The notes below the pieces were generated by a model that was not told the origin of the DNA, did not search any database, and saw only the letters and a program-made list of their open reading frames with translations. Made by a program: the position numbers and the translations under genes. Shown piece by piece: positions 5,245 to 20,090 of a stretch of DNA of 64,000 nucleotides (position 1 is its first letter; every line of letters starts with the position of its first letter). Origin of the DNA: a virus; the IMG/VR virus record IMGVR_UViG_3300042691_008788, positions 62,001 through 126,000 of that record; one strand, 5' to 3'.

Positions 5245-5929
5245 AAAACTCACGAAGAGCCTTCCAAGAATAGGGGAAGAAGGGTTCCACAATGTCAGAA
5301 ATGGCCTTGGCATACTCCCTGACCTCCCATTGGGCATGGGAATCCGATCTCAACTTGCAGACACGGGCATAGGCAGATAGAGATCCCGTCCACCACCACT
5401 CCGTATAGGTTCCCTGTGGGAGGGCAAACCTTGCCTGTTCTGGTGCCACTCCCGCGCTCAGAAGATCCCTGTAGGTATCAAGGGCATCATCACAGGCATT
5501 TCTGTAAGTCTCATCCTGCATGGTCGTGCCTACCATGAAATCAGAACTTCCCTGCTTGGCTCCATCGGTCGGAGCGGATCTCCATGTCGGCACATAGTAC
5601 TCAGGATCGTCCTTCACATAACGGCGGGACACTTCATTCTCAACGAATCCAACCTTGTGCTTGAAAAGTTGGGTGCGGATTGAGATGGGTGCCTTGATAT
5701 GGAGACATATCTGAGGATGGGCGAACGGAGTCCAGTGCTTGTGTTTGGAAAGGTAGTTTATAAGTTTCTCATCTTTGTCTGTGAACTGAGAAACTTCCTT
5801 GGCAAAGGACACTCGCGCTGCATTGACCACCATGAGATCACTTCCCATGTGGTCGATGTACCTCACGAATCCCTTGTCGAGGACATCAATCTTCTTGTCC
5901 GTCTGCCGTACATCCTGTGTTGTCAACAT
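5240..5929 (-). CDS. thyX: Flavin-dependent thymidylate synthase ThyX
   Basis: It converts dUMP to dTMP using FAD and methylene-tetrahydrofolate. The signature region at residues 90-104 reads KHKVGFVENEVSRRY. It keeps the His and the N-E-x-S-x-R-Y part of the ThyX motif RHRxxSxNExSxRY but has Lys in place of both Arg residues and one extra residue, a form I associate with phage ThyX. HWTPFAHPQ near residue 65 and ALPQGTYTEWWWTGSL near 175 are also family features. I chose ATG 5929 (229 aa) because GGGAGTGG lies about ten bases upstream. A start at 5977 would add 16 residues and increase overlap with the small gene upstream. With dCMP deaminase and dUTPase in this window it completes a dTMP-supplying route. 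Confidence 0.93.
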   Translation of the reverse strand: MLTTQDVRQTDKKIDVLDKGFVRYIDHMGSDLMVVNAARVSFAKEVSQFTDKDEKLINYLSKHKHWTPFAHPQICLHIKAPISIRTQLFKHKVGFVENEVSRRYVKDDPEYYVPTWRSAPTDGAKQGSSDFMVGTTMQDETYRNACDDALDTYRDLLSAGVAPEQARFALPQGTYTEWWWTGSLSAYARVCKLRSDSHAQWEVREYAKAISDIVEPFFPYSWKALREFS

Positions 5930-6113
5930 ATGTAAATTCCACTCCCTCCACATCTGTGAATGTCTTTGAATAATCAACAGCCCTCTTCCAAAGTTCAGGA
6001 TTCATCTCACGAATATATTCCTGAAAATGATGTGTGAACTGGAGGAATGCCTGAGTTATCTTCTCGGCTTCCTCATGGTCGATGTCATCATCTAGATCGT
6101 CACTTTCTTCCAT
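5886..6113 (-). CDS. Small acidic protein of unknown function (75 aa)
   Basis: Starts MEESDDLDDDIDHEEAEK, then a predicted amphipathic helix (ITQAFLQFTHHFQEYIREM) and a NPELWKRAVDYSKTF segment. A GAGG ribosome site lies eight bases before the ATG. The gene overlaps the primase 3' end by 22 bases and the thyX start by about 44 bases. I do not recognise the family. A small acidic phage protein next to replication genes could be a transcription co-activator of the gp33 type, but no motif proves this. Confidence 0.55.
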   Translation of the reverse strand: MEESDDLDDDIDHEEAEKITQAFLQFTHHFQEYIREMNPELWKRAVDYSKTFTDVEGVEFTYVDNTGCTADGQED

Positions 6114-7150
6114 TTAGCAAACCTCAGTTTCGCTTCAGCACCGCTGCATGTGCCTTGTTTGATGGCCTTCATGATGGAAGGGATGTCTATTCCCGCCATC
6201 ACCATGTCATTGATGTCCTTGTGTGTCATGGATGAATCCCATATCACCACATCGTGTCCAAGATCGATGTGCTTCTTCAACTGAGTGATGACAGCGACAT
6301 TCCTCGGCTCGTTATCTATGCAGAAAATCAGTTTTCTTCCCTGCAAAGGCTTTGGAATATTTGAACCATCATTGATTCCGATCATTGCAACTGCATTTGG
6401 AATGAATAGTGAATCAAGCGGACCTTCAAAGACATAGACAACTCCATCCTTGTCCAATCGCTCCATTCCATACCACAACTTCTCAATGGTCTTGTCTCCC
6501 TTGAGAGTGATGTAACGGGCTGTCCTTCGTGCATTCCTGTCATCCTGAACTGACAATGCTCGACCCTGAGCCGCTACCATGTTTCCATGCTTGTCAAAGA
6601 TAGGAATGACAAGGCGCGGTACAGCCTCAAGTCTAACATCGGGATCAACCAATCTTGACCATTGACCAAAGTCCTGAGCATAATAGAGTATGTCCCAATG
6701 CTTCTGTGGAATCTTTCTGAGTTCAATGAACTGGCGACACTTGTGGTTATCTGGTAGTTCAGAGACTTTCTGTAGTTCATCTAGTGGTGAACCTTTCTTT
6801 GCTTCGAAGGGCTTCTTGAATAGCCCGAACATCTCATCCTCCTTGGGTTTGGTGTAGTTGCAATGGCCTGTGTCTCCATTCCTCCACCGCTCAAGGGAGT
6901 ATTCCTTGCACATTGCGGGGGCGAACATCTCAAGAAACTTGTACATCGTGTGACTCGCACCACAGTTGTGACATCTGTAGTACATGTCGTTCTGCTTCTG
7001 ATAGAAATACCCACGCGCCTTTGCCTTGTTTTTCTTGGAGTCTCCGCACAGGGGACACCGAAAATTCGCAAGATCTTGTTTCTTCCAAGCGAATCTTTCG
7101 AGTCTAGGGGAGAGCAAGTTTATGTACTTCTTGTCGATGAATAGAGACAT
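6092..7150 (-). CDS. 61: DNA primase (T4 gp61-like)
   Basis: Synthesises RNA primers for lagging strands together with the gp41 helicase. The N-terminal zinc-binding motif is CPLC at residues 32-35 with CHNC at 60-63. A Toprim-like core follows, with VYVFEGPLDSLF near residue 233 and LIFCIDNEP near 270. The chosen ATG at 7150 shares one base with the gp41 TGA stop (TGATG). An ATG 15 bases upstream would give five extra residues. The 352-residue length is close to T4 gp61 (342). Placement directly after the helicase gene matches their joint primosome role. Confidence 0.9.
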   Translation of the reverse strand: MSLFIDKKYINLLSPRLERFAWKKQDLANFRCPLCGDSKKNKAKARGYFYQKQNDMYYRCHNCGASHTMYKFLEMFAPAMCKEYSLERWRNGDTGHCNYTKPKEDEMFGLFKKPFEAKKGSPLDELQKVSELPDNHKCRQFIELRKIPQKHWDILYYAQDFGQWSRLVDPDVRLEAVPRLVIPIFDKHGNMVAAQGRALSVQDDRNARRTARYITLKGDKTIEKLWYGMERLDKDGVVYVFEGPLDSLFIPNAVAMIGINDGSNIPKPLQGRKLIFCIDNEPRNVAVITQLKKHIDLGHDVVIWDSSMTHKDINDMVMAGIDIPSIMKAIKQGTCSGAEAKLRFAKWKKVTI

Positions 7151-8544
7151 CAGTCGAAGTTCCAATCGTCATATTTATCTGCTGCGGAAGGTACTCCGTT
7201 TCGCTTTCCGCCATTCTTAACATTGTCTTCACTATCGTTGAAACCCCTGTCATCCACGACATCGCTGCCGACATCAATGAGTTTCATCTTTGATCTGTCA
7301 ATGCCAATCACGAACTTCTTGTTCCTTGAGACATCATTGTAGCGATTCTTCAACTGCTTGACCATGACCTGACCCTGTTCCTCAAGTTCCTCTGTGGAGA
7401 TGAGGGCAAACATAAGATCGGCTGTGGCGGGAAGACCGAATGATTCTGATGTATTCTCAAGACCAACATCTGAGTTGTTGAACCCACCGCGATTGACCTG
7501 AGTCGCTGAAAAGATGGGAACCTCAAACTCCTGAGCAAGACTACGAATTTCTTCAGCGATTGCCTTGATGAAAGTATAGGAATTCACACTTGCAGACATC
7601 TTCAATCTTGCGGATGCACAGATGTTCAGATAGTCGATGAAGATGATATCTGGTTCAAAGTTCTTCTTGGTCTTGAGATCATTCAACAATGCTCGGAAAT
7701 GGTTTGCATTTGCCGTTGCCGTTGGATACTCCTTGATGATGAGTCTACCCGTGTACTTCTTACGAATCTGCTGCATCTTCTTGTTGTACAAGTCCGCTGG
7801 CAGTGCCTTGAGATCATCCATGGCTAGATCCATGAGGTTTGCATCGATGCGTTCCGCGATCCTCTCCTCTGCCATCTCACAGGTGATGTAGAGAACATCA
7901 AGATTCTGTGTCAAACAGGCAGATGCATGGTGACACATGAATAGAGACTTGCCGACACCCGTACCCGCCATCACGATATTCAAGGTTTTGCGAGGAACAC
8001 CACCATTGGTGATGGTATTGAACTGCTCAATGTCAAATGGAATCTTGTTTTCAACGCGATGATAGAACTCGTACCGCTTGCCGTAGTCTTCGATGTAATC
8101 GTGACCGATGTTGGTATCGAATGACACCGCAAGGGCATCGGATAGCATCTTTGGTAAAGATCCAACATCCTTGTCCTTCGACTTTCCGTCGATGATATGG
8201 ATTGATTCAAGAATTGCATTGTAGAGTGCCTTGTCCTTGCAGAACTTCTCAGTCTGCTCCACAAGCCATTCAAGATCTGGACTCTTTATGTCTTCGAACA
8301 TCTTGTCTAGATTCACGATGCATTGCTTCATCGTCTCGGGTTCGATGTTCGTCTTGGCATCTAGGAGGATTTCCAAGGCACCGCGAGTCGGCATGGAGTT
8401 GTATCGCTGAATATAGTCAGACACCATTCTGAACAAAATCTTGGTGTCCCTATCAGCGAAATAGTCCTCCTTGAGGAAGGGGAGGACTTTTCGGAAGTAC
8501 TGGTCGTTGCGCGTCAGTTCACGCAGGATGGTCAGTTCGATCAT
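7150..8544 (-). CDS. 41: Replicative DNA helicase (T4 gp41, DnaB-like)
   Basis: Hexameric 5'-3' helicase of the phage replisome. Walker A is AGTGVGKS at residues 193-200, Walker B is DIIFIDYLN near residue 298, and a DnaB-type FSATQVNR segment lies near 345. The N-terminal 150 residues are the helical primase-interaction domain. The 464-residue length fits the family (T4 gp41, 475). There is no good ribosome site before ATG 8544; instead a clear host-type promoter ends seven bases upstream, so the transcript may have almost no leader. It is coupled to primase downstream. Confidence 0.95.
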   Translation of the reverse strand: MIELTILRELTRNDQYFRKVLPFLKEDYFADRDTKILFRMVSDYIQRYNSMPTRGALEILLDAKTNIEPETMKQCIVNLDKMFEDIKSPDLEWLVEQTEKFCKDKALYNAILESIHIIDGKSKDKDVGSLPKMLSDALAVSFDTNIGHDYIEDYGKRYEFYHRVENKIPFDIEQFNTITNGGVPRKTLNIVMAGTGVGKSLFMCHHASACLTQNLDVLYITCEMAEERIAERIDANLMDLAMDDLKALPADLYNKKMQQIRKKYTGRLIIKEYPTATANANHFRALLNDLKTKKNFEPDIIFIDYLNICASARLKMSASVNSYTFIKAIAEEIRSLAQEFEVPIFSATQVNRGGFNNSDVGLENTSESFGLPATADLMFALISTEELEEQGQVMVKQLKNRYNDVSRNKKFVIGIDRSKMKLIDVGSDVVDDRGFNDSEDNVKNGGKRNGVPSAADKYDDWNFD

Positions 8545-8551: not shown

Positions 8552-8579
8552 AGTATAGTGTGAGATCAAGTGATGTCAA
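8552..8579 (-). promoter_or_regulatory. Sigma70-type promoter for gp41 (TTGACA-N16-TATACT)
   Basis: A perfect -35 box TTGACA at 8579-8574 and a -10 box TATACT at 8557-8552 are separated by 16 bases. The -35 overlaps the last codons of the epimerase gene. The -10 ends seven bases from the gp41 ATG, implying a very short or absent leader. Confidence 0.75.
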
Positions 8580-9495
8580 GATTCTTTATCCATTCCTCTA
8601 CAGATATTTTTGGTTCCCACTTAAGTTTGGATGTTATTCTTTGAATGTTTGCCTCTGTGATCTTTGCCTCACCCTGTCTTGGCGGTAGGAATACAAATGG
8701 TTCATTGCTATCCCATCGTTCTTGCATGAGTTCCGCAATCTTTCTGATTGTTATGCTCTTTCCCGTACCAACATTATAAACAGTTCCATTTTGTGGTTCA
8801 TTTGATTCAGCACCAGCAATCAATGCCCTACAAACATCCTCAACATGGATGAAGTCCCTGCTTTGGTGTCCATTGCCCGTGATAGTAAGTGGCTTGCCCT
8901 CTTTTAGAAGTCGCTGAAAGATTCCCATCACAAGAGCATACTGACCCTTCTTTGGCATTCGGTTTCCATAGATGTTGAATCCTCGGAAGCACACAGTGTC
9001 AAGTCCATAGTTCGTAGAGTACATCTTGCAAAGTTGTTCACCGAAATACTTGGAATATGAATATGCATTCAGACAATCAGGAACATCCCATTCGAGATTT
9101 GGAGGTTCGCAGAGTCCATAGATCGCAGAGGTACTCATGAACACCATGCGAGAAGCACACCCATTATCATGTTTTCTACACAAAGAAAGCATTGTTTGTG
9201 TACCCATGACATTTGTTTCCATGCAGCGACTAGGGTCATTCATGCAGTTCTGTATACGAGCCTCTGCTGCAAGATGAAAGACCACATCGGGTCTGTGTCT
9301 TTCAAATACCTCGCTGCACATAACATAATCAGTTATGTCATAGTGGTAGTACATTACATTGGGATTGAAGTAGAACTCATCGTGAGCATCGGATGAAAGA
9401 TTATCGATGCCTACGACTTCATGTCCCTGCTCGACAAGCATATCGACAAGATTGGAGCCGATGAATCCGCAGGAGCCTGTTACTAGGTATTTCAT
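8566..9495 (-). CDS. NAD-dependent sugar epimerase/dehydratase (extended SDR)
   Basis: Acts on a nucleotide-diphosphate sugar, probably as UDP-glucose/glucuronate 4-epimerase or 4,6-dehydratase. The NAD-binding GSCGFIG lies at residues 7-13, the acidic partner D31 follows at the end of strand 2, the catalytic Ser region is STSAIYG at 121-127 and YxxxK is Y145-K149. A C-terminal substrate-binding region includes FRGFNIYG and SRDFIHVEDVCRA. Its 309-residue length is typical. It is the last gene of the glycan island and has its own promoter, so it may be expressed apart from the glycosyltransferases upstream. The exact substrate cannot be told from sequence alone. Confidence 0.88.
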   Translation of the reverse strand: MKYLVTGSCGFIGSNLVDMLVEQGHEVVGIDNLSSDAHDEFYFNPNVMYYHYDITDYVMCSEVFERHRPDVVFHLAAEARIQNCMNDPSRCMETNVMGTQTMLSLCRKHDNGCASRMVFMSTSAIYGLCEPPNLEWDVPDCLNAYSYSKYFGEQLCKMYSTNYGLDTVCFRGFNIYGNRMPKKGQYALVMGIFQRLLKEGKPLTITGNGHQSRDFIHVEDVCRALIAGAESNEPQNGTVYNVGTGKSITIRKIAELMQERWDSNEPFVFLPPRQGEAKITEANIQRITSKLKWEPKISVEEWIKNLDIT

Positions 9496-9501
9496 AAAGC
9501 A

Positions 9502-9529
9502 AGTATAGCGCGGGATCAGCGAGAGTCAA
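9502..9529 (-). promoter_or_regulatory. Sigma70-type promoter for the epimerase gene (TTGACT-N16-TATACT)
   Basis: The -35 TTGACT at 9529-9524 and -10 TATACT at 9507-9502 have the same 16-base spacing and the same short distance to the start codon as the gp41 promoter. The -35 overlaps the stop codon of the FkbM-type gene. No strong ribosome site follows. Confidence 0.7.
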
Positions 9530-10146
9530 GACTTCCTTACAAGAACAATATTTTCAGCGTTCAGAGCGGCAGCATCATACTTGTCTTTAAATTTATCGTA
9601 GATAGCCTGATACTTTCCATCATGTTCTATAACGATTGCATCAACATCAAATCGTTCAAAATCAAACTTCATGGAAAGATCAAAACTGGTTCCTTCAACA
9701 TCAATGGACACCAAATGCAACTTTTGTGGTAGGAAAGTATATAATTCTTCCAATGATATTGTTGATGCCACATAAGGAACATGCTTTCTTCCAAGATGGT
9801 TCAGGTAGCCAGCCCACTTATCCTTATGCCATCCCTCAGTAGTAGTTAGCGCACCATCAGTTCTATCATCCTTCGGTACCAACCAAGACTTGATGGGCGG
9901 TGTCTTTTCAAGCGTGACTGCTGCACCAACTATCAGAATCTTGTCGTTGGTCTTGTATTCATTCACAAGATCAACAAGACTATAGGGAGACATGTCCACC
10001 ATGACTCCACCCCAACCCTTCTCGACCAATGCACGGGTGTTGGATAGATTCTTTGGGTGAAATGCTCCGATTTCAAGGAAAGAGCCATTTGGAATATTTG
10101 AGAAAAATGTTGCAAGAATATCATCTTCATTATTTTGAGCGTACAT
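9526..10146 (-). CDS. FkbM-family methyltransferase
   Basis: SAM-dependent methyltransferase of the FkbM type, often acting on sugars. It begins MYAQNNEDDILATFF; the SAM motif I is FLEIGAFHP at residues 23-31, and VSIDVEGTSFD and AIVIEHDG are later family-typical strands. I chose ATG 10146 (206 aa), which has GGAG six bases upstream, over an upstream start that would add 44 residues overlapping the neighbouring gene. The gene overlaps the phosphodiesterase-like gene by 17 bases, so the two are co-transcribed. Likely role: O-methylation of a phage-directed glycan. Confidence 0.8.
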   Translation of the reverse strand: MYAQNNEDDILATFFSNIPNGSFLEIGAFHPKNLSNTRALVEKGWGGVMVDMSPYSLVDLVNEYKTNDKILIVGAAVTLEKTPPIKSWLVPKDDRTDGALTTTEGWHKDKWAGYLNHLGRKHVPYVASTISLEELYTFLPQKLHLVSIDVEGTSFDLSMKFDFERFDVDAIVIEHDGKYQAIYDKFKDKYDAAALNAENIVLVRKS

Positions 10147-10576
10147 GCGTTCTCCATTCTTTTGCGTAATCAGTGCATACTCCCCACATTTGAGGAATGT
10201 CACCTTCGGGCTTTCCCAACCACACCGTGACACCAAGACGAGAGTGGTTGTCAGGATACATCCACAACAATCCATCACTCGTCAGGGTCATCTTGTCCGT
10301 TTCATGCCAGAAACAAGTTATGCCATATGACGAAACGATCATTTCCTCAAAGGCTTCCTTGTTCTTTGCATGACACCACAAAGACTTTCCACGAAACCAC
10401 CAAGGATCAACAAAGTATGTCGGAGCATCATGCCCAAGAAAGAACTGACCATCGACATACCAAACATCCACTTCTACATCGAACCCAAGATCCAAAGCCT
10501 GTTGGATATAGGTTGGATTGTTCTCACACTCAGGTTTCCTACCATCTAGATTGCCACGATGAGATATAATTTTCAT
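10130..10576 (-). CDS. Short glycerophosphodiester phosphodiesterase-like protein (148 aa)
   Basis: The N-terminal half carries the GDPD fold signature: H6-R7-G8, an EN pair at 18-19, E35 and D37 in VEVDV, and H49-D50 in FLGHD. These are the catalytic and metal-binding positions of the family. The protein is much shorter than usual GDPD enzymes (about 240 residues or more), so the second half of the barrel is reduced. Similar short versions occur in polysaccharide gene clusters. It may cleave a glycerophosphate-type substituent or act on a nucleotide sugar; the substrate is not known. Start ATG 10576 overlaps the nucleotidyltransferase stop by one base. Confidence 0.7.
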   Translation of the reverse strand: MKIISHRGNLDGRKPECENNPTYIQQALDLGFDVEVDVWYVDGQFFLGHDAPTYFVDPWWFRGKSLWCHAKNKEAFEEMIVSSYGITCFWHETDKMTLTSDGLLWMYPDNHSRLGVTVWLGKPEGDIPQMWGVCTDYAKEWRTHVRSK

Positions 10577-11289
10577 TACTTTCTACCGAGGAAAGAATTC
10601 AAATCTTCGGGGGTTCCTATTCCATGCATCCTGTGTACAAAGAAAGGAATCAGTGTCTTTCCAGACTGAATCAGTTCATTGTAGACAGGGGCGATATAGA
10701 ACTCGTTGTTCACCCGTATGTTCTTCTGAATCATTGTCTCAGCACAAGAAACAAACTCAGAACCCCTGCGATACCAGTAGATGCCACAGGTTGCAATGTC
10801 TGATATCGGATTCTTTTCGGCAACCTCAGTGACAACTCCCCGTGAATTTGTCTTCACGAAAGACCACTTGGGATGTACGGCATGAAAGGTGAATACTATC
10901 GCATCGGCGGCAGTAAAGTTCTTGAGATAGTTGAAGTTCTCAGGACTATATTCGATTATCTGATCCGAATTTGCTATTAACAGATCCTCGTCGTTGTTGA
11001 TGTATTCCTTGGCGAGCAATGCCGTACATGCCGCACCTTCAGTTAAACCATCCACCTCGACAACCTTGTATCTCCCATTAGTAATCCTCGCAAGGGTTGT
11101 CTCCAACCCAGCGTACTTATCAAGATGCTCCTTGCGAACAAGGAAGATATACTCTGCATCGAAGTCGAGATTCTCGACAACGCGCTGAATCATCGGTTTG
11201 CCTTCCACATCAATGAGAGGTTTTGGGAAGGTATATCCTTCCTTTGCGAACCTACTACCTTCCCCAGCCATTGGTATTAAAATCTGCAT
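10576..11289 (-). CDS. Sugar-phosphate nucleotidyltransferase
   Basis: Makes an NDP-sugar from a sugar phosphate and NTP. The N-terminus contains the nucleotide-binding loop GEGSRF at residues 9-14, KPL at 23-25, and ANSDQIIEY near residue 105 in place of the usual metal-binding Asp segment. The 237-residue length fits the NTP_transferase family. It overlaps the HAD gene by 13 bases. Together with the phosphatase-like and epimerase genes it would supply activated sugars for the island's glycosyltransferases. Base and sugar specificity are not resolved. Confidence 0.88.
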   Translation of the reverse strand: MQILIPMAGEGSRFAKEGYTFPKPLIDVEGKPMIQRVVENLDFDAEYIFLVRKEHLDKYAGLETTLARITNGRYKVVEVDGLTEGAACTALLAKEYINNDEDLLIANSDQIIEYSPENFNYLKNFTAADAIVFTFHAVHPKWSFVKTNSRGVVTEVAEKNPISDIATCGIYWYRRGSEFVSCAETMIQKNIRVNNEFYIAPVYNELIQSGKTLIPFFVHRMHGIGTPEDLNSFLGRK

Positions 11290-11918
11290 AGTTCTTTGTA
11301 ATAATAAAGCCCATCAACAAAATTTGTGTAACTCTCTCTAGTCACTTTTGTTGAGTTATCAACTTTCCAAATATATTCTGCTAGGCTGCTCTTTGCAGAT
11401 TGCAAACCAAACATAGAGTCCTCAACACAAATGCACTTTTTAGGATTTGCGTTCATCTTTCCGATTGCCAAATTATAACAGTCTGGATGAGGCTTGTTTC
11501 TATTCACCATTTCGTTACTAACGATAAGATCAATAAATGGAATTTGTCCAGTGGCAGTAAGCATCTCTATTGCGGTGTCTCGTATTGAGTTTGTGACACA
11601 TGCTATTTTGATATCCAAAGACTTCAAATGCTGATGTAGTTCGATCTTCTCTGGCATAAGAGTAGCATTTTTCCTGATGACATCAATAGTGTGTCTTTGC
11701 TTTTCCTCATTAATCTTTTCAGCGATTTCTTTTGGCACATTCATCATTTGTAACTTTATCCGCGTTGGTAATCCATTATATGTCGATTCATGAGCATTCC
11801 TGCTGATTTCAGGATAGCCATGTTCTTTTAGGGCCATATTCAACGCCTCGTAGTGCCATTCGCAGGCGTCCACAAGAACTCCATCCAAATCAAAAAGAAC
11901 AAAATCAATATCTACCAT
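11277..11918 (-). CDS. HAD-superfamily sugar phosphatase or phosphomutase
   Basis: Motif I is DLDGV at residues 10-14, with the nucleophile Asp. The cap contains LPTRIKLQMM. Motif II is VTNS, motif III includes NKPHPDCY, and motif IV is ICVEDSMFG. This pattern fits the beta-phosphoglucomutase/phosphatase subgroup. At 213 residues it is complete. It most likely converts a sugar phosphate for the adjacent nucleotidyltransferase. Genes on both sides overlap or lie within one base, so it is in the same operon. Confidence 0.85.
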   Translation of the reverse strand: MVDIDFVLFDLDGVLVDACEWHYEALNMALKEHGYPEISRNAHESTYNGLPTRIKLQMMNVPKEIAEKINEEKQRHTIDVIRKNATLMPEKIELHQHLKSLDIKIACVTNSIRDTAIEMLTATGQIPFIDLIVSNEMVNRNKPHPDCYNLAIGKMNANPKKCICVEDSMFGLQSAKSSLAEYIWKVDNSTKVTRESYTNFVDGLYYYKELCRF

Positions 11919-11919
11919 T

Positions 11920-12630
11920 TCAGTATTGCCTCATGTTTGGACTATTAGCATAATAAAAAGACTCATCTAGTCTAACTATCTCAGAATCGAATAGCGTCTG
12001 ACATATGTCAAATAGATTTTTGTGTGTGTCTACGAAAGAGCGGGTGTTATACACTTCATGTGAAAAGAGACGAAGTAGATGAGAAGATTTCCCAATCATG
12101 ACTCCATCATGAAGATGATCCTTCATCTGAGAAAAAACTAGCAGATCTTTGTCTGTTTTGCTGAATCTACTAATTGAGTCATTTATGTAATCTATCGAAG
12201 AGGGCTTGTGCGGAAATATATCTGGTCTTGTGAGTATCACTATATCATCCGACAAAGATGGTTGTGTTGACAAGAACTGATTCAATGCCATGTAACGATG
12301 CAAAATTTGCATCTTGTAACTAGACTCTCTGTAATATGGTCTTTCTTTACAAACGGGCAGGGTCTTATATTGAGATAACAGAAGATCTCGCGTCGATAGA
12401 TCTATAAAATCTACGGCATCAAAAAACTCAAGATCCATCAGTTTTTGTAGATTTACCTTAGAAGTGTCCGCAGACATAGTTTTATCCATGTCTCCTGTCC
12501 ACCATCCGAGTTCTTCGTGCGTAAAAATAACTCTTTTTTGACAAAGAAACCTTGATAGATGTCTCTCTATGAATGGTGTGGGGTTGGAATAAAAGTTTCT
12601 CAGATGTCCAGTGACGAAAAGAGTAGGCAT
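11920..12630 (-). CDS. Unrecognised glycan-island protein (236 aa)
   Basis: No family assigned with confidence. The product starts MPTLFVTGHLRNFY, and ILTRPDIFP near residue 153 resembles the acidic segment of glycosyltransferase-like capsule proteins (WavE type). GGAG lies seven bases before the ATG. One base separates it from the HAD gene downstream and one from the methyltransferase upstream. Context suggests a glycosyltransferase or glycan-modifying enzyme. Confidence 0.5.
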   Translation of the reverse strand: MPTLFVTGHLRNFYSNPTPFIERHLSRFLCQKRVIFTHEELGWWTGDMDKTMSADTSKVNLQKLMDLEFFDAVDFIDLSTRDLLLSQYKTLPVCKERPYYRESSYKMQILHRYMALNQFLSTQPSLSDDIVILTRPDIFPHKPSSIDYINDSISRFSKTDKDLLVFSQMKDHLHDGVMIGKSSHLLRLFSHEVYNTRSFVDTHKNLFDICQTLFDSEIVRLDESFYYANSPNMRQY

Positions 12631-12631
12631 G

Positions 12632-13210
12632 TCATTTTCTCCGCACTATGAACATCAAGTCATCGTAACGACCCTTTGTTGCTCGCAGATCAACTATATC
12701 GAACTCATCTGTCTCTTGTTTTACTTTCTCAAATGCATTACAAAGAACTGGCATCCAATCGATTGACTGTACATCTTCTATTGCAAGAACTCCACCACTG
12801 TTAAGTTTACGAAGATAGATGTTAATACAAGATACCATAGAGTCTAGGGTGTGTGGTCCATCATCTATAATGATGTCGAAATTTGGCAATCCATCTGAAA
12901 CTCTAGAGTTGTATGCGTCATCTATTGTGATAACTATGTTATCGTTTTGCAATGCTTCTTGGACAATCTTCCCACCATAATTGTCAAGTCCATAAACCCC
13001 AGTGTGATTAGAAAAATACTTGTCCCACAAGAGCAGCGAATGACCAGAAGCGATTCCAATCTCAAGGATTTTTACTGCCTTGTCCCTATATTTGGAAAAC
13101 TCCTGCTCATAAAAGCCGTCAATGTAGTTGTGTGTGGTATTTTTGTCGGTGGCAACTCCACATTCCCCCGACCACTTGCTTTCATTCAATATTTCGTTCA
13201 AAGTTTTCAT
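12632..13210 (-). CDS. Class I SAM-dependent methyltransferase (192 aa)
   Basis: Motif I is ILEIGIASGHS near residues 43-53, followed by acidic motif VYGLDNY and the strand DIIIDDGPHTLDSM. That pattern is characteristic of the Methyltransf_24 / cephalosporin-hydroxylase-like group often found in glycan loci. The ATG at 13210 is preferred over a TTG at 13228 because the domain starts at once from MKTLNEIL. Neighbours are another methyltransferase and sugar enzymes, so a sugar substrate is likely but unproven. Confidence 0.8.
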   Translation of the reverse strand: MKTLNEILNESKWSGECGVATDKNTTHNYIDGFYEQEFSKYRDKAVKILEIGIASGHSLLLWDKYFSNHTGVYGLDNYGGKIVQEALQNDNIVITIDDAYNSRVSDGLPNFDIIIDDGPHTLDSMVSCINIYLRKLNSGGVLAIEDVQSIDWMPVLCNAFEKVKQETDEFDIVDLRATKGRYDDLMFIVRRK

Positions 13211-13233
13211 AGTTATTTTCTCAATCAAAATTT

Positions 13234-14397
13234 TTAAGAGTAAATCTGTATCTCAGGGAGCAGAACCACTATCTTTCCTCCAAATGATTGCCTGAGAGAG
13301 TGTATTATGTGATCTTTGAAGTTGTGTATCAGCACTATGATGTAGTCTGGTTTGTCTGTATTTATACGAGTTCTATCAACAACTTCTAACTTTGTTCCTG
13401 GAATAAACTTTCCTTGCTTACCTGGAGTGTCATCAACAACATAGAGAAATTGATCAACAAGAGATTTATCTATGCAATTTAAATAGACACAACTCTTAGC
13501 CCCAGCACCGAAACAGGCAACCCTGCCACCATTCAATAGACTTTGGATGAATATCTCATCGGATTCTATTTTATTCCTAACAGACTTTCCCCACGAAGCA
13601 AAATCAAAATCTTTCTCTATTTGAATATAGTTTTGAACTTCGTCAATATGACCTCTACCTCTGTTTGTAGACACCACTCGGATAGTTCCTCCGTGGATAG
13701 GATGTTCTGTTATAGAAACTATACTCAACCCATATTCAGAAAACAACTTGGCTAAAGGGGTTATTAGCCAGTAAAAGTAATGCTCATGATATATCTGATC
13801 AAATTGATTCGTCTGTGCGGTTCTTAAAAAATACGGAAATTCTAAAACCCAAACCCCATCTAAGTTTGATTTTATAGACCTCAAAAACCCATGGACATCC
13901 GAGTTGTGTTGAAACACATTAGTAGACACAATGAGATTTGCTTTTCCATCAATTTTGCAATCTGCCCAGAACTTTCTCTCATAGATGATGCCCGATGCTA
14001 TGTTTTCTTCCACAAAAGAAACGCTTGGATCAACATTGATAAGTCTTGTCTCAACTCCATCTGGCATCCTCTCCTTAAACACCTTAAGAAGAGTTCCATC
14101 ATTTCCTCCTATATCTACAATCGTAGAAATCTCTTTAGCATACATCGAAAGATGCTTTTTAATGTCGTTCCACATTGCTCGGCAATGTTGCTTATACGGC
14201 TCGTTCACAGAAGACCTATAGAGATATTCGTGAAACATCTCTGTTGGGTCAACCTGTGTGTCCAAGCGAAATATCATGTCTTCCTCAACCATTTTCAATG
14301 AATATCTTTTGGCAGAAATGGAAGATTCAGCAGTTGTTTTCAGGTTATTTGCCAAAGGTATTGTGTTCAGATCAAGTATAGTTCGTTCGTTGCTCAT
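13234..14397 (-). CDS. NDP-sugar C-methyltransferase-like protein
   Basis: Two-domain architecture. The SAM domain has motif I IVDIGGNDGTLL near residue 93. The C-terminal domain has ACFGAGAKSCVYLN and VVDDTPGKQGKFIPGT, the pattern of the C-3/C-methyltransferase family acting on deoxysugars. HEHYFYW near residue 205 is the conserved His-rich segment of this family. The N-terminal part keeps LDLNTIPLAN but lacks the Cys-rich zinc site that usually precedes it, so it appears shortened at the N-terminus. A strong CGAGGAGA ribosome site precedes ATG 14397, so the shorter form looks genuine. Likely role: making a branched or methylated sugar. Confidence 0.8.
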   Translation of the reverse strand: MSNERTILDLNTIPLANNLKTTAESSISAKRYSLKMVEEDMIFRLDTQVDPTEMFHEYLYRSSVNEPYKQHCRAMWNDIKKHLSMYAKEISTIVDIGGNDGTLLKVFKERMPDGVETRLINVDPSVSFVEENIASGIIYERKFWADCKIDGKANLIVSTNVFQHNSDVHGFLRSIKSNLDGVWVLEFPYFLRTAQTNQFDQIYHEHYFYWLITPLAKLFSEYGLSIVSITEHPIHGGTIRVVSTNRGRGHIDEVQNYIQIEKDFDFASWGKSVRNKIESDEIFIQSLLNGGRVACFGAGAKSCVYLNCIDKSLVDQFLYVVDDTPGKQGKFIPGTKLEVVDRTRINTDKPDYIIVLIHNFKDHIIHSLRQSFGGKIVVLLPEIQIYS

Positions 14398-14415
14398 TTC
14401 TGTTCTCCTCGAAAA

Positions 14416-15099
14416 TTAATGAATCTCTTCATTTCCATGTACTGCTATCTTTCCCTTTATTCCAATTGGAGAATCAAAGAACTGATAGCGAGAAGGGTTC
14501 AATGTAGTCACATAGTTGTATACCATTTTTTCCATCGAAGTCTGATCACCAGAAGCGTATCTGTTCGTGGCATAGTTCAAAAAATCCATGTATTTCTCTC
14601 TGCATGATACCCGATAAAGTGATGGAATCGATGTAGAACCCTCCCAAGGAGTATTGTACATCACACGGACATTGAAGTCTTTATTCATGTCAAATCTTTC
14701 TAGTTTAAAACTAGAATCAATGATATATCTTCCACTGATCTTATAGATGTCGTTGGAAAAATCAATCTTTGATACTACTTCACGCAGGATAAAAGCCTCC
14801 CCAGCACTCTTATTTGGAGAGTGTACCCACTTAGCCACCTCTTGAGTTGAAGACAAATCTACAAACTTGTCTTCATAACCAAGAACTTTTCTTATTTTAA
14901 AACTATTAGCCGAACTCCAATCAAATGCACTACAGTCTGCAAGGATAATCTTAAATTGAGGTAACATATTCTTGATCGACAGAATAGTTTCGATAGTCTG
15001 CTTTAGTCTAGAATCAACATCAAAAACACTTCGTGTAGCAGTGTAATTCAAAGGACTATTAGTCGGGTGTATAACTGATGTTATTATGATGGTACTCAA
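14416..15099 (-). CDS. Unrecognised glycan-island protein (227 aa), TTG start
   Basis: No firm family. The start codon is TTG at 15099; AGGAG lies nine bases upstream and overlaps the stop codon of the preceding gene, so TTG is well supported. The product has a Rossmann-like beginning, STIIITSVIHP, and later FKIILADCSAFDW and IYKISGRYIIDS, where an acidic/Arg loop follows a strand as in nucleotide-sugar-binding folds. The size fits a small glycosyltransferase, but I cannot identify a DxD motif with certainty. Confidence 0.5.
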   Translation of the reverse strand: MSTIIITSVIHPTNSPLNYTATRSVFDVDSRLKQTIETILSIKNMLPQFKIILADCSAFDWSSANSFKIRKVLGYEDKFVDLSSTQEVAKWVHSPNKSAGEAFILREVVSKIDFSNDIYKISGRYIIDSSFKLERFDMNKDFNVRVMYNTPWEGSTSIPSLYRVSCREKYMDFLNYATNRYASGDQTSMEKMVYNYVTTLNPSRYQFFDSPIGIKGKIAVHGNEEIH

Positions 15100-15111
15100 A
15101 ATTTAGAACTC

Positions 15112-15861
15112 CTAAAATGAATAGTGCTTCTTGTAGTGATGTAGAATTGAATACTTTTCTCTTAATGTATCTTCTACCCCATCGTAGTTTTTTTTGCTAT
15201 GATCTTCTCCCCATCTACCAAGTTCATAAACTTCTGCATTAAACTGATGTTTCTTTCCTGCTAGCATGAAGGCAATTGAATTCATACAGTCAGTCCATCC
15301 TATTGTTGGATAAATCTTCTGTATAGCATCAAAGTTCTTGTCAACAAATGATATCAGATATGGATATATCATCTGAAATGTTTCTCGCTTAAATATCCCC
15401 CCACCACCAAGACCATAGTGATTGTCTGAATTTTCTCCACTAACATTTCTTATAAACTCTAGTAACGACGGGTGAATGTAGTTCTGTTTGCAGTTTTCTG
15501 TTACATACATCTCAACATCTATCGGAACATTGATAGAGTTTATTACACACACATCATCTTCCATTATCAGAATATGAGATGATTTGCACAAAGAAACAGC
15601 CGCAGAAAATCTCCTCAGATATTCCATCATCTGTGATTTCTTGTAACCAAATACTTTTTCGGGATATCCGATGTTCTCTTGGGCGTGAATATAAATGCAA
15701 TTGTGGTTACGACAAATATCGGAAAAATCATCACCGCCATCACATACAACCACATAGGTAGAATCTGGATTATACTTACGAAAACTTGATATCGCAGCAT
15801 CACTGGCTACTTTGTTTTTATAAACTAAGTGAAGTGCATCGATACTCAAAACACACCCCAC
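15112..15861 (-). CDS. GT-A-type glycosyltransferase (249 aa)
   Basis: IMEDDVCVINS near residue 98 has the acidic DxD-like motif of GT-A enzymes. YGLGGGGIFKRETF near 150 is an acceptor-side pattern, and GWTDCMNSIAF near 188 follows. The start is uncertain: GTG 15861 gives the full frame, while TTG 15849 overlaps the stop of the previous gene and has GGGG upstream. Either way it overlaps or abuts its neighbour. Donor and acceptor cannot be deduced. Confidence 0.65.
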   Translation of the reverse strand: MGCVLSIDALHLVYKNKVASDAAISSFRKYNPDSTYVVVCDGGDDFSDICRNHNCIYIHAQENIGYPEKVFGYKKSQMMEYLRRFSAAVSLCKSSHILIMEDDVCVINSINVPIDVEMYVTENCKQNYIHPSLLEFIRNVSGENSDNHYGLGGGGIFKRETFQMIYPYLISFVDKNFDAIQKIYPTIGWTDCMNSIAFMLAGKKHQFNAEVYELGRWGEDHSKKNYDGVEDTLREKYSILHHYKKHYSF

Positions 15862-16628
15862 TTGCTAGTATCTACTCTATCATACTGATGTATAATTGGT
15901 ATTACACTTCCACCGACAGATGGGAGTTTGCTTTCATCCCATGTAGGCTTCTCAATCAACTTGTCACGGAACTTCTGAACTCCAACTGTCCCAAGGTGAA
16001 CCATAAGTCCATCGGATGGCCGAACCATTCGTATTGACCTTCTTCCAAACTCAGTACCCATGAGGATGTTGAAAGACGATTGATCTGAAACGCTTGCAGG
16101 ATTGTGGTAGCACATGGTGAAGATCATCAGACACAATTCAGCAACTGCTTCTACAGTTCCACAGAGAACGCCGACATTGCATATCTCCTGTTCCTTGTAC
16201 TCGTCATAGACATAGCCAAATCCCTCACGAAGATTTCCGTTCCCCCAATGCTCATCTTGATAAGCAATACATTCGCTGCCACAGACTATATTTCTACTAC
16301 CTAGAAGTTGAATCAAGCGGGGAAATGGATCTCCATGAAAATAGACATCCCTGCTATCTGTTAGAACAACATATGAGTATATGTGCTTCACAGACATCAG
16401 GTACTTGTATTGAAGTAAAAAGCGTAGGTTGTGTGGAGGCTTGTTCATCGGTGGAAGATGATATGGAACAACCATAACTCTGTTATCTGTACAATCCTTT
16501 ACAAGTTGATCATTTGAATTAATAAGGATATTACAAACATCATGCCCCGTCTTTTTTGCAGACAAGTTCCAAGTCTTTATTTGATCCCAACCATAACCTG
16601 AAGATGATGATAGAAATAAATTTTTCAC
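15846..16628 (-). CDS. Glycosyltransferase-like protein (260 aa)
   Basis: The segment YSYVVLTDSRDVYFHGDP near residues 84-101 resembles the metal-binding region of eukaryote-type nucleotide-diphospho-sugar transferases. ICNVGVLCGTVEAV near 150 and the terminal IIHQYDRVD add to the resemblance. The start overlaps the fucosyltransferase stop (ATGA). It is probably a GT-A enzyme; linkage is unknown. Confidence 0.65.
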   Translation of the reverse strand: MKNLFLSSSSGYGWDQIKTWNLSAKKTGHDVCNILINSNDQLVKDCTDNRVMVVPYHLPPMNKPPHNLRFLLQYKYLMSVKHIYSYVVLTDSRDVYFHGDPFPRLIQLLGSRNIVCGSECIAYQDEHWGNGNLREGFGYVYDEYKEQEICNVGVLCGTVEAVAELCLMIFTMCYHNPASVSDQSSFNILMGTEFGRRSIRMVRPSDGLMVHLGTVGVQKFRDKLIEKPTWDESKLPSVGGSVIPIIHQYDRVDTSKWGVF

Positions 16629-17527
16629 TTGGTATCCATTACCTTCATAATAAAGTTCTTGAATATCTGTCGCCCATTGCGAATGTACTCATCTGCACGA
16701 TATCCTGTGATTGGATCAACAAAGGACATCGTCTGTAGTCTGTCTTGATCGGATAGCAAAGAGAATATATCTTGTACAGATCTAGTTACAGACTCTTGGT
16801 TGGTAGAATCAAATCTGATATACGATTTAGGATTAAACTCAAGCGCAATATCTTCGGCTCCCCAATAAATCGGAACTGAGTTGACAATAAATGCCTCATA
16901 GATCTTTTCTGTAATATATGACTTTTTTGCAAGATTTTCAAATGCAATAGCAGCCGAATACTTTGAAGTGAACTCCAACTTGTCAGAAACTTCACCAACA
17001 TTATTGCATACCCTTCCACCAGAGTCACATACACCACTCTGAACAAGATACTGAATCAATGTTGTTCTCAAGCCATTGCTTGGATTAGAAACAACTGCTG
17101 ATATCTTTCGCGTCTTATCCTTACGAAACTTTTCTCGCAGTTCTTCAAATGAATCACAGCCGTGCTTGTCAAGATAGTCCTGATGGTAGATCGCATATAG
17201 AGGAAACCTAAGTGCCATCATACCATTCGGCATATCCTCTTCAAGATCAAATCCAATGTATGCATCACATCCTGGTGTCGTGGAGACGATATCATAACTT
17301 TCTCCAGTAAAAGCAATTTTTTTACAGTTAATCTTGTTCATATCTGCATATGACGGAGAACCAACCATCGGTCGATATATTGAAATGACCAAATCAACAT
17401 TAGTATTCACTCCAAGTTGTATTTCACATTTTGGAAATATCTCCTTAAGCAATCTACTGATAATAAAACTATCTGTCGTACAATTATTGTCAAATCCACC
17501 CCAAGTATTGACATAAGCAATCTTCAT
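16625..17527 (-). CDS. Family 10 glycosyltransferase (fucosyltransferase-like)
   Basis: The GT10 hallmark is present at residues 196-223: FEN, then YITEKIYEAF, then VPIYWGAEDI, with FNPKSYI just after. In alpha-1,3/1,4-fucosyltransferases this segment binds GDP-fucose. An N-terminal acceptor domain occupies about 130 residues. The 300-residue length is normal for bacterial members. It overlaps both neighbours by four bases, so it belongs to the same operon as the galactosyltransferase. A fucose donor is implied by family, not shown; no GDP-fucose synthesis gene is obvious in the window. Confidence 0.85.
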   Translation of the reverse strand: MKIAYVNTWGGFDNNCTTDSFIISRLLKEIFPKCEIQLGVNTNVDLVISIYRPMVGSPSYADMNKINCKKIAFTGESYDIVSTTPGCDAYIGFDLEEDMPNGMMALRFPLYAIYHQDYLDKHGCDSFEELREKFRKDKTRKISAVVSNPSNGLRTTLIQYLVQSGVCDSGGRVCNNVGEVSDKLEFTSKYSAAIAFENLAKKSYITEKIYEAFIVNSVPIYWGAEDIALEFNPKSYIRFDSTNQESVTRSVQDIFSLLSDQDRLQTMSFVDPITGYRADEYIRNGRQIFKNFIMKVMDTK

Positions 17528-18183
17528 ATACTCACCTTTATCAATATTCTTTCTGGTGTTTCGTTGCGATCAAGAACAGAATACTTGCAGGAATTGATTC
17601 CTTCATTCTCCCAATCCAACTTCTTCAACCACATCTCTCTAATACGCTCTATGTTCTTCTTGTAATCTTGCTCATCAATCTTCCTGTCATGGTTCAATGA
17701 CTTCAGGATACCAGGCGACTGCCTTTGAACCTTCAACCCTGCGAGGTGGCAACGATAGAGGATGTCATCATCTTCTGCTCCCCAACCCCAATACTCGTTG
17801 CTGTATCCATTCACCTTGTTGAATGAGTTCCTACTGAACATAGTGACTCCACCAAAGTATCCTTCGTATGGAAGCCCATAGTTGAACTGACTTGCGGATG
17901 CAGCAAGGTGTGTTGGTAGTTCCTCATAGTTGTAACTTACATTCTGAGGAAGCATGTCAACATCATGAAACACAAAGTAATCGCAGTCCGTGTCTGCCTC
18001 AAGAAAACCAATATTCAACAACTTGGCTCTATTGAATGGCTTTCCAACTTCCTGCTCTATGATATAGATGTTGTGCAGTACATTCTGCTTGTCCAAGTAA
18101 CTCTTCATGTGAGGAAGGAACACCCGAAGGTGTTCCTCACGATCACGATATGGAACTACTATAGCAAGTTTATGTGTGGTCAA
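17524..18183 (-). CDS. Beta-1,4-galactosyltransferase-like enzyme (GT7), animal-type motifs
   Basis: Motifs in order are VPYRDREEHL at residues 10-19, FNRAKLLNIGF at 50-60, FHDVDMLP at 72-79 (metal-binding DVD), YFGGV at 109-113 and YWGWGAEDDD at 131-140. These match the catalytic core of animal beta-1,4-galactosyltransferases almost block for block. There is no signal anchor, so it would act in the host cytoplasm. At 219 residues it is the catalytic domain only. It sits between a fucosyltransferase and a sugar reductase. The likely reaction is UDP-Gal (or UDP-GalNAc) transfer to a terminal sugar. Confidence 0.88.
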   Translation of the reverse strand: MTTHKLAIVVPYRDREEHLRVFLPHMKSYLDKQNVLHNIYIIEQEVGKPFNRAKLLNIGFLEADTDCDYFVFHDVDMLPQNVSYNYEELPTHLAASASQFNYGLPYEGYFGGVTMFSRNSFNKVNGYSNEYWGWGAEDDDILYRCHLAGLKVQRQSPGILKSLNHDRKIDEQDYKKNIERIREMWLKKLDWENEGINSCKYSVLDRNETPERILIKVSI

Positions 18184-19034
18184 AAAGCACCACCAGACAT
18201 TTTTTTCAAAGAATATCTCAAAGCATCCAACTCAGTTCTACAATGCATCATCGGATTTTCTTTTTGTATTGTTTCTAGACAGATATTTGCTCTTGGAGCA
18301 GAAAGAGAAAGTTGTTCTAAAGTCTTCAACTTCCAATTTGGATTCCCAAATCCAAATTTTTGCATTTCCGTAATGAACTCCTCGGTGTTAAGTGGATTTG
18401 GATTTATCATGTGATAAACCCCACATGCATCTACGAGAATACCACTTACAAGCATTTGCTCTATCGCAGAACACAAATCATCCATACAAGTTTTTGAATT
18501 TCTATAATTAAGAATATTGTCATAATTAACCAACTTACAAATCAAATTTCTTTGAGTAGTTTCTGAGTTAAAAGGAAGTCTGATCCTTAAATTTGAGTTC
18601 GGGAGATGTTTAGATGACAACTCATAAGCATGTTTAGTTTTTGTATAAAATGATGGTTCATTGAACATTCCAAAATTTGGAGTGTCTGATTCATTCCAAA
18701 CTTTATTATAACCATCGAACAAACAACCAGTGGAGATATGAACATAAGAAATGTTCCTATTAGCACACAAAGTATTGACCATAAGAGGAACACTGACATT
18801 CAAATTCCAACATTCTTCTTTTTTTGACTCGGCTTCGTCTATGTTTGGTCTGCCTGTGAATCCAAAGCACCCAAAGACAATATCTGGTCTAAACGACTGC
18901 AAATGACTATCCAAAATAGATTTGTTATGATAATCAAGAATATTTCTAGGAAAAACCAAGGTTTCGTGGGTTTTCACCAATTGCTTGTATAAGTTGCCAC
19001 CAACATATCCATTTCCCAGTATAGTTATTTTCAT
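18180..19034 (-). CDS. NAD(P)-dependent sugar reductase (RmlD-like SDR)
   Basis: The N-terminal Rossmann motif is ILGNGYVGG at residues 5-13, followed by HISTGCLFDG and YTKTKHAYE as the catalytic Ser and YxxxK elements. The length and order resemble dTDP-4-dehydrorhamnose reductase and GDP-fucose synthase relatives. I chose ATG 19034 since MKITILG starts the fold directly; ATG 19046 would add four residues. This is the first gene of the glycan island, 37 bases after uvsX. The local DNA looks AT-richer than the replication genes, judged by eye only. Confidence 0.78.
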   Translation of the reverse strand: MKITILGNGYVGGNLYKQLVKTHETLVFPRNILDYHNKSILDSHLQSFRPDIVFGCFGFTGRPNIDEAESKKEECWNLNVSVPLMVNTLCANRNISYVHISTGCLFDGYNKVWNESDTPNFGMFNEPSFYTKTKHAYELSSKHLPNSNLRIRLPFNSETTQRNLICKLVNYDNILNYRNSKTCMDDLCSAIEQMLVSGILVDACGVYHMINPNPLNTEEFITEMQKFGFGNPNWKLKTLEQLSLSAPRANICLETIQKENPMMHCRTELDALRYSLKKMSGGAF

Positions 19035-19070: not shown

Positions 19071-20090
19071 TCAAGCACTTCCATACTTAAACTCCTTTGC
19101 CACAGCATCCTCAAGCCGCTTCATCACATCATCGGTGAAGTACTTCTGTGGATTCTCATTGATGTTCTTCTCAAATGCCGTGGTGCCATCGGGAAGTTCG
19201 ATGCGAGTCGATACCTTCTTGAAGATTCCATGGTTGAGAGCGATCTCGGTAAGACCATAGTAGCGGTTCAGACCAGTATCATAGTTCAACTGAACATCGA
19301 CCTGTTGATTCTCTTTGGTCAAACGAGATTTGTACAACTTGCAATGAATGATGTTTCCCACCACATCCCCATCTGCATTCTTTTCCTTCTTCTTTGAGAG
19401 ATAGACGATGGTGGATGCGGCGTACTTCAAACCGCTGCCACCACCCATCTCCTTCGTCGGAACATACGCGCCAATGACATCGTATGTGTGATTGGTCATC
19501 ACAAGAGGAATCCTTGCCTTACCCAACTTCATGGTAAGGACACGGAATGTTGCCTTGACTCCCTGCGAACGAGTCATGTCGCGGACATTCTTACCCTCTG
19601 CTGAATCGTTGACTTCCTTCTCGGTTGACAACATTCCAAGTGAGTCAAGGACGATCATCATCGGCTTGCGATCTGATTCATCCATCTCAAGAACCTTGTC
19701 AACGATTGTCACACATTGAGTCTTGAACTCCTCAATCGTGGCAACGGGAAACACAGCGACTCGCTTGGCATCAACACCACGACCTTCGAACATGTCGGAT
19801 GTCACCGCTTGCTCTGAGTCAAAGTAGAGAACCATGCCCTCGGGATTGTTCTTGAGGAACTGCGCGACAATCCCAAGGGTAAAGTAGGTCTTTCCCGTGG
19901 CAGACTCACCCGCAAGGGCGATGATCTTGTTGTCGGCAACTCCACCATACAACGATCCTGAAAGGAGCGCATTGAAAGCATAGGAGCCTGTGTCAACGAA
20001 TCCCGCGACATCGGCACCTTCGATTCCATCCTCAACGATACTGGCAAACTTGTTGCCAGATTCCTTCACAATCTGCTTTAGAAAATTCAA
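19071..20090 (-). CDS. uvsX: UvsX recombinase (RecA-like)
   Basis: Strand-exchange ATPase for recombination-dependent replication. Walker A is GESATGKT at residues 61-68, Walker B is MIVLDSLG near 148, and MTNHTYDVIG and MGGGSGLKYAAS correspond to the L1/L2 region. At 339 residues it is somewhat shorter than T4 UvsX (391). The frame begins with TTG at 20090, preceded by AGGAGAG at a normal distance, so a TTG start is likely. The four-base gap to the LSm-like gene shows co-transcription from the promoter at 20433-20460. In T4 this gene is followed closely by gene 41; here the glycan island intervenes. Confidence 0.95.
   Translation of the reverse strand: MNFLKQIVKESGNKFASIVEDGIEGADVAGFVDTGSYAFNALLSGSLYGGVADNKIIALAGESATGKTYFTLGIVAQFLKNNPEGMVLYFDSEQAVTSDMFEGRGVDAKRVAVFPVATIEEFKTQCVTIVDKVLEMDESDRKPMMIVLDSLGMLSTEKEVNDSAEGKNVRDMTRSQGVKATFRVLTMKLGKARIPLVMTNHTYDVIGAYVPTKEMGGGSGLKYAASTIVYLSKKKEKNADGDVVGNIIHCKLYKSRLTKENQQVDVQLNYDTGLNRYYGLTEIALNHGIFKKVSTRIELPDGTTAFEKNINENPQKYFTDDVMKRLEDAVAKEFKYGSA

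Follow-up and report, generated by a model that had tools for sequence, protein, structure and literature searches.

An exchangeable sugar-gene locus between uvsX and gp41

Within a 64,000-nucleotide stretch of viral DNA, hereafter the window (positions 62001-126000 of the 156,618-base (156.6 kb) record IMGVR_UViG_3300042691_008788), the genes for the UvsX recombinase and a gp41-like replicative helicase are separated by an island of 14 co-directional open reading frames (ORFs) at 8566-19034/19046 on the minus strand, lettered here A to N from the uvsX side. It is almost certain that this locus is a property of the clade to which the phage belongs and that its alleles are switched there, and we are just as confident that the function of the island is glycan biosynthesis. 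The best explanation taken as a whole, an exchangeable glycan locus serving cytoplasmic glycosylation, likeliest of a virion protein, has in our judgement a little under an even chance of being right. The two flanking genes are:

19071..20090, minus strand: UvsX recombinase, left flank (PHROG 97, E-value 4e-87)
7150..8544, minus strand: gp41-like replicative helicase, right flank (PHROG 19, E-value 3e-121)

The virus is a T4-like phage of uncultured aquatic bacteria, with a UvsX 63% identical to that of Pelagibacter phage HTVC008M and 61-63% identical to those of Methylophilales and Synechococcus T4-like phages. The photosystem genes psbA and psbD, searched for in the record as a clue to the host, were not found, making a typical marine cyanophage unlikely; the 11 tRNA genes of the record all lie outside the island. 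In T4, gene 40 is the sole gene between uvsX and 41, while HTVC008M has no gene at this place and S-RIM2 one, which bears out the contrast between close spacing in T4 and a wide gap here that was drawn in a preliminary description made from the window alone.

A search with UvsX fetched 80 viral contigs, which were then mapped with the window genes and considered informative when at least 2.5 kb of sequence was available downstream of uvsX. In all 18 informative contigs whose UvsX was at least about 85% identical, the genes next to uvsX were sugar genes rather than gp41. At 75-79% identity gp41 was found within 2.5 kb in 28/28 contigs, and at 67-74% it was adjacent in 13 while an island was present in 7. 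On the UvsX tree, island presence changes twice and the type of start module six times, counts that are approximate because this is a quick tree with many weak forks. Complete occupancy among close relatives and only two changes in presence indicate a long-standing presence of the locus in the clade, and they do not support the word 'inserted' in the preliminary description, which suggests that this phage acquired it recently. The same description had held that the cluster would count as core if most relatives had it at one and the same site; the site proved to be the same, the contents did not. Islands between uvsX and gp41 also occur at two separate places of the tree in contigs with a UvsX 69-75% identical (L200, L080-L083, L060, L062-L065 and L102), a distribution that suggests either that the site was colonised more than once or that the island was lost in between.

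Twelve contigs, window included, gave the complete interval from uvsX to gp41. L196 and L198 share 98% of nucleotides in both uvsX and gp41, while their islands, of 12.0 and 10.0 kb, are 0% alignable beyond the edges; the same 0% was obtained for the islands of L198 and L202 (uvsX 98%, gp41 96%) and of L197 and L201 (96% for both genes). The twelve alleles range from 6.2 to 13.1 kb and hold 90 protein families, 63 of them present in a single allele. Near-identical flanks carrying wholly different alleles point to strong diversifying selection on a phage-made glycan. Two start modules were distinguished: type I begins with a gene of glycosyltransferase family 7 (GT7; gene B in the window, present in 7 of the 12 complete alleles), and type II with family c2, which has no assignment, usually together with GDP-mannose 4,6-dehydratase-type and GT2 genes. 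Genes B, C and D are common to relatives with graded divergence, and the alleles are mosaics. Other alleles bring a GDP-mannose 4,6-dehydratase, a GT15 mannosyltransferase, a DegT aminotransferase, a kinase-aldolase fusion and a transketolase-like gene, so that each allele probably makes a different sugar.

Assembly chimeras, judged over the contig set and not contig by contig, could still lie behind the allele difference; both start types recur in many independent contigs, however, and the same borders are seen in the complete alleles. The island might also be stuffer DNA or functionless passengers, as weighed for the lipopolysaccharide (LPS) clusters of cyanophages (PMC3037559), and the wide range of allele sizes would suit that idea. 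We give it hardly any credence, since all 14 island frames are open, the signature motifs of GT7 and GT10 are intact, the genes overlap in an operon-like manner and, for all the near-total turnover, no allele examined is without sugar genes. Such phage clusters have traditionally been labelled 'LPS genes' and at times regarded as potential stuffer DNA; the present locus offers a natural experiment.

Cassette borders and a promoter-like box

Homology between alleles stops in the last ~20 nucleotides (nt) of uvsX and resumes ~35-45 nt before the ATG of gp41. A promoter-like box lies at the right border, and the window holds one other match of the same kind:

8552..8579, minus strand: right-border promoter-like box, TTGACA-16-TATACT, with the -10 element ending 7 nt before the gp41 ATG
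9502..9529, minus strand: second box of the same kind, 6 nt before gene N

TTGAC(A/T)-16 nt-TATA(C/T)T precedes gp41 with near-identical flanks in 11 of 11 complete alleles of the island clade (the window, L193-L199, L201, L202 and L024), among which the last cassette gene differs. The strict box pattern was present in 12 of 45 distinct gp41 upstream sequences, namely 11 of this clade and that of the more distant L098, and had no match in relatives with gp41 adjacent to uvsX. When the whole window was scanned with TTGACW-15-18-TATAMT, the two boxes, before gp41 and before gene N, were observed where 0.18 matches were expected. Because the -10 element ends 6-7 nt before each ATG, leaderless transcripts would result. 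The gp41-proximal box may insulate gp41 from changes in the cassette, and the second box may mark a former border. A scan of the window for T4-type late promoters gave one match, TATAAATA, on the minus strand; as this sole match lies inside gene G, the scan says nothing on timing.

Genes and composition of the island

The 14 genes, which run in the direction of the replication genes, are:

18180..19034, minus strand: gene A, RmlD-like short-chain dehydrogenase/reductase (SDR) of the nucleoside diphosphate (NDP)-4-keto-sugar reductase type (PF04321, E-value 7e-17)
17524..18183, minus strand: gene B, GT7, beta-1,4-galactosyltransferase type (PF13733, 5e-27; PF02709, 1e-25)
16625..17527, minus strand: gene C, GT10, alpha-1,3-fucosyltransferase type (PF00852, 1e-11)
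15846..16628, minus strand: gene D, probable glycosyltransferase with no Pfam family (PHROG 1579 glycosyltransferase, 3e-4)
15112..15861, minus strand: gene E, probable glycosyltransferase (ExD motif; E101/D103 invariant, 15 homologues aligned)
14416..15099, minus strand: gene F, GT-A-fold glycosyltransferase (predicted structure and PDB fold matches)
13234..14397, minus strand: gene G, sugar C-methyltransferase with a Methyltransf_14 C-terminal domain (PF08484, 2e-21; PF13489, 1e-12)
12632..13228, minus strand: gene H, class I S-adenosylmethionine methyltransferase, Methyltransf_24 (PF13578, 1e-6; PHROG 21658, 1e-17)
11920..12630, minus strand: gene I, orphan (no family match; relatives in the same allele only)
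11277..11918, minus strand: gene J, haloacid dehalogenase (HAD) protein of the beta-phosphoglucomutase (beta-PGM)/phosphatase subfamily (PF13419, 3e-31)
10576..11289, minus strand: gene K, sugar-1-phosphate nucleotidyltransferase, RmlA/GlmU-N type (PF00483, 4e-9; PHROG 3980, 5e-65)
10130..10576, minus strand: gene L, short glycerophosphodiester phosphodiesterase (GDPD)-like protein (PHROG 34507, 2e-28)
9526..10146, minus strand: gene M, FkbM methyltransferase (PF05050, 2e-5)
8566..9495, minus strand: gene N, SDR of the nucleotide-sugar epimerase/4,6-dehydratase type (PF01370, 6e-58)

The preliminary description had reported the island correctly but counted twelve genes, although its own list also sums to 14. 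Its two SDR enzymes, nucleotidyltransferase, HAD enzyme, GDPD-like protein and three methyltransferases agree with the profile matches, and its glycosyltransferase-like genes are accounted for by the GT7 and GT10 proteins together with families D and E, which keep acidic motifs and have no Pfam match.

Gene A, the first after uvsX and absent at that position from other alleles, also matched TIGR01214 (6.5e-19), below the curated cut-off. The protein of gene B combines the GT7 domains with the motifs DVD and WGWGAEDDD, the latter containing the family signature WGWGxEDD. In gene C the C-terminal GT10 domain scored above its cut-off and the signature FEN..YITEK fits FEN..Y.TEK; PF18025 (4e-5) remained below cut-off. 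Protein D has DxxD and HQYDR motifs whose residues D91/D94, H247-Q-Y and R251 are invariant in 17 phage homologues, while a profile of gene E finds cyanophage proteins annotated as GT25 (S-SM2, 2e-9; B23, 3e-3). Sequence searches of the PDB with D and E gave nothing credible, and proteins B and D had no match among GenBank phages, nor did the island when GenBank phages were searched at the DNA level.

Genes F and I had been put forward as possible new enzyme types. An AlphaFold2 model of F, built from 4 sequences (3 of them homologues from other phages), reached a predicted local distance difference test score (pLDDT) of 76 and a predicted template modelling score of 0.80, and Foldseek matched it to BoGT6a (4ayl, 1e-7), glycogenin and the capsid glycosyltransferase of PBCV-1, with E-values from 1e-7 to 1e-5. 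By its modelled fold, an ordinary GT-A one, F is a glycosyltransferase rather than a novel type of enzyme. Gene I is still an orphan: relatives were found in its own allele only, its profile did not match that of gene F, and its single-sequence structure model had a pLDDT of 33.

Among the remaining genes, J matched TIGR02009 (5e-27) below cut-off, and the best solved relative of K is a sugar-nucleotide pyrophosphorylase (PDB 4evw, 8e-30). Gene L has the motif HRGN..EN..EVDVW..GHD (20 sequences aligned) and a weak profile match to the GDPD 7e0v (5e-4). Gene N, the last before gp41, matched TIGR01181 (2e-47) and galE (3e-44), both below cut-off. The start of gene H is uncertain, with an alternative ATG 18 nt downstream. 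In L005 (10840-11319), a contig otherwise identical there to window positions 12632-13228, gene H has a 117-bp in-frame deletion, which may be a strain-level variant or an assembly difference. Intergenic distances lie between -149 and +36 nt, mostly slight overlaps or spacers of a few bases; inspection of start codons suggests that gene M probably starts at 10146 rather than at 10278, the start of the longest ORF, and the 149-nt overlap therefore shrinks to ~17 nt.

The GC content falls from ~45% outside to 37-39% in the island, and GC at third codon positions (GC3) is 0.38 compared with 0.49 in 28 other window genes (Mann-Whitney p = 4e-4). In this comparison, of a kind that had been proposed as a check, both values were lower and most island genes atypical. 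The composition of K, L, B, M and N departs less, the GC3 of K and B being near the phage average, so that the island is a mosaic. One recent event, in which this phage took up a complete bacterial pathway horizontally, would fit the lower GC and GC3, as well as the presence of the J-K module in bacteria and archaea. Against this, every informative close relative has an island at this site, B, C and D diverge in a graded manner across relatives with mosaic alleles, and K is nearest to phage proteins, leaving such an event very improbable; it was rejected on the occupancy of 18/18 close relatives and the two presence changes on the UvsX tree.

Sugar chemistry and the J-K module

J and K are a conserved module of long standing. 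A search with K yielded 80 bacterial and archaeal loci, of which 74 contained J (63 with it adjoining K) and 37 contained L; viral K loci contained J in 80/80. Outside this allele the nearest relatives of K are phage proteins (up to 95% identity), compared with at most 73% in the genome collection; homologues in S-CAM9, DSL-LC03 and B23 are 54-55% identical. The J-K pair was also seen in contigs assigned to Lokiarchaeota, Micrarchaeota and many bacteria (L211, L221, L239, L253 and others), with K at ~50-59%. The 73% homologue is on L209, a 306 kb contig of the Methylococcaceae metagenome-assembled genome (MAG) TMED69 with J and L homologues nearby, an occurrence that could be due to recent exchange or to phage DNA having been binned with the MAG.

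From what is known of their families, J and K plausibly convert a sugar phosphate to an NDP-sugar, which N, G and A could dehydrate, C-methylate and reduce. The genes form a coherent glycan-building set, with enzymes for precursors and transferases for sugars, but to call it a near-complete pathway is too strong: the island has no recognisable initiating enzyme, flippase, polymerase, ligase or GDP-fucose synthesis for the GT10 protein, so that precursors, and perhaps the first sugar too, must come from the host. Upstream of the DNA polymerase gene, at 26175-27452 (minus strand), lies a 425-aa beta-1,4-glycosyltransferase-like protein (PHROG 13126, PF00535); since relatives with and without an island have PF00535 proteins of about this size, it could be a core sugar transferase.

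Candidate targets of glycosylation

We scanned 262 island proteins for multi-pass membrane proteins, defined by at least three hydrophobic segments; the 22 contigs that supplied them include overlapping copies of the same allele. No multi-pass protein was found, compared with at least one in 53 of the 80 bacterial and archaeal loci with the same nucleotidyltransferase, a comparison that is coarse, being made with a simple Kyte-Doolittle scan and with flanking genes included in the bacterial loci. O-antigen and Gtr systems need multi-pass membrane proteins, and their absence implies that the enzymes act on a cytoplasm-accessible target or borrow all export machinery from the host. We regard assembly in the cytoplasm as probable.

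DNA is one such target: glycans on modified phage bases would, as in T4, evade restriction, and alleles would diversify against glycan-specific nucleases. The locus lies in the replication block, the T4 genes for beta-glucosyltransferase and dCMP hydroxymethylase are just upstream of uvsX, and no membrane machinery would be needed. We nevertheless consider DNA glycosylation improbable. A hydroxymethylase of the Thymidylat_synt family (PF00303) was not found in the record by a search that does detect T4 gp42, nor was a Tet_JBP dioxygenase or a C5-cytosine methylase, a result that concerns these families in a possibly incomplete record.

The island might instead modify the host surface, its product altering LPS or a surface polysaccharide through the flippase, polymerase and ligase of the host and thereby blocking superinfection by other phages or keeping progeny from adhering to debris. 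Clusters of cyanophages and pelagimyophages are usually interpreted in this way (PMC9602691, PMC7029224). The J-K pair is frequent in sugar-gene loci of cells, in many cases alongside multi-pass membrane proteins, a place among the replication genes would suit early expression, and competition between phages could drive allele diversity. However, no allele encodes a GtrA-type flippase, Wzx, Wzy, a membrane initiating transferase or any multi-pass protein, and every allele would rely fully on host machinery accepting a foreign product. We rank a host-surface role second and think it rather unlikely.

As known DNA-sugar routes and membrane machinery were not found, a virion protein of the phage is the likeliest acceptor, a candidate we favour without quite giving it even odds. 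Besides the coarseness of the membrane comparison, several points weigh against a virion target or against the proposed organization of the locus. The host could supply flippase and ligase, which would allow LPS as the target, and GT10 and GT25-like families also act on LPS in bacteria. Early expression, part of the preliminary description, is suggested by the position in the replication block, while virion proteins of phages are made late. The gp41-proximal box, for its part, is a promoter predicted from a sequence match only.

Under the best explanation, the following sequence of events could be envisaged. Homologous recombination in the conserved flanks, uvsX and gp41, would exchange whole cassettes, and the gp41-proximal box would let gp41 be transcribed whatever the cassette contains. 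J and K, often with L, would activate a sugar or polyol, and A, N and G would turn the NDP-sugar into a branched or deoxy sugar. The soluble proteins B, C, D, E and F might then build an oligosaccharide, methylated by H and M, on a cytoplasm-accessible acceptor, likeliest the virion protein, assembly taking place in the cytoplasm. The particle would thereby gain a phage-encoded, allele-specific sugar coat under diversifying selection. More tentatively, we suggest a phage 'serotype locus', in which self-encoded glycosylation cassettes exchanged at one site would change the coat of the particle independently of the host and, jointly with this exchange, the cassette border would be marked by a conserved promoter-like box giving a leaderless gp41 transcript. 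Phages with a virion acceptor would own serotype switching, with consequences for adsorption, decoy binding and competition between phages.

Comparison with known systems

The large cyanomyoviruses P-SSM2, S-SSM7 and S-SM2 carry 'LPS' gene clusters near hli03 and phoH (Sullivan et al. 2010, PMC3037559). Like these clusters and those of S-CAM9, DSL-LC03 and B23, the island belongs to a T4-like phage and has co-directional sugar-precursor and glycosyltransferase genes, and in DSL-LC03 genes annotated as HAD and GDPD neighbour the K homologue, as they do here. The cyanomyovirus clusters sit near hli, phoH or tRNA genes, whereas the island sits between uvsX and gp41, and switching of alleles at an exact site is described for the island and not for them. 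The pelagimyophages, related T4-like phages, also have a hypervariable island with several glycosyltransferases, the host recognition cluster between vrlC and gp14 (Zaragoza-Solas et al. 2020, PMC7029224); that cluster is in the structural module with tail fibres, and in HTVC008M gp41 directly follows uvsX. With its several co-directional nucleotide-sugar and glycosyltransferase genes the island is thus a glycan or 'LPS' cluster of a T4-like phage, and its position matches neither published type of site (hli03/phoH/tRNAs or vrlC-gp14), the site being no defining feature.

Bacterial O-antigen and capsule loci resemble the island in their conserved flanks, exchangeable contents and combination of precursor and transferase genes. 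Allelic exchange at the same site between conserved flanks was found here, whereas neither a flippase/polymerase pair or ABC exporter nor an initiating transferase was seen among the 262 proteins at the threshold of three hydrophobic segments; the island works like, but is not, an O-antigen or capsule locus. Nor is it a GtrABC system, as the GtrA flippase and membrane GtrB/GtrC would require a multi-pass protein, absent from every island.

In T4, too, a glycosylation gene (b-gt) lies in this part of the replication block, immediately upstream of uvsX, and the DNA is glucosylated with the help of a PF00303-type hydroxymethylase, gp42. T4 adds one glucose, not a built oligosaccharide. The record gave no PF00303 match, the glucosyltransferase half of this system not having been searched separately, and neither the Tet_JBP dioxygenase nor the C5-cytosine methylase of TET-based DNA hypermodification was found in it. 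Chlorovirus PBCV-1 encodes glycosyltransferases for its own capsid, with a conserved core and variants and an experimentally known glycan and target (PMC7826918). The fold of gene F matches the PBCV-1 capsid glycosyltransferase among others; PBCV-1 is, however, a eukaryotic virus with other gene families. Cassette switching at the same uvsX-gp41 site was not described in the open-access literature searched, and while phage sugar clusters are known, the uvsX-gp41 position, sharp borders and whole-cassette switching look new against that literature.

Other genes of the window

The largest gene of the window, a 2272-aa ORF at 32877-39695 (minus strand), had no PHROG match at an E-value of 1e-5. 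A thymidylate synthase gene (5240-5977, minus strand, PHROG 85) is flanked by gp61 and by the gene for a collagen-like tail fibre (3619-5214), and its product is probably of the ThyX type, as PF00303 gives no match. In L024, L025 and L026 homology to the DNA polymerase is split by extra sequence (L024 6295-8642), possibly an intein, an intron or an inserted gene.

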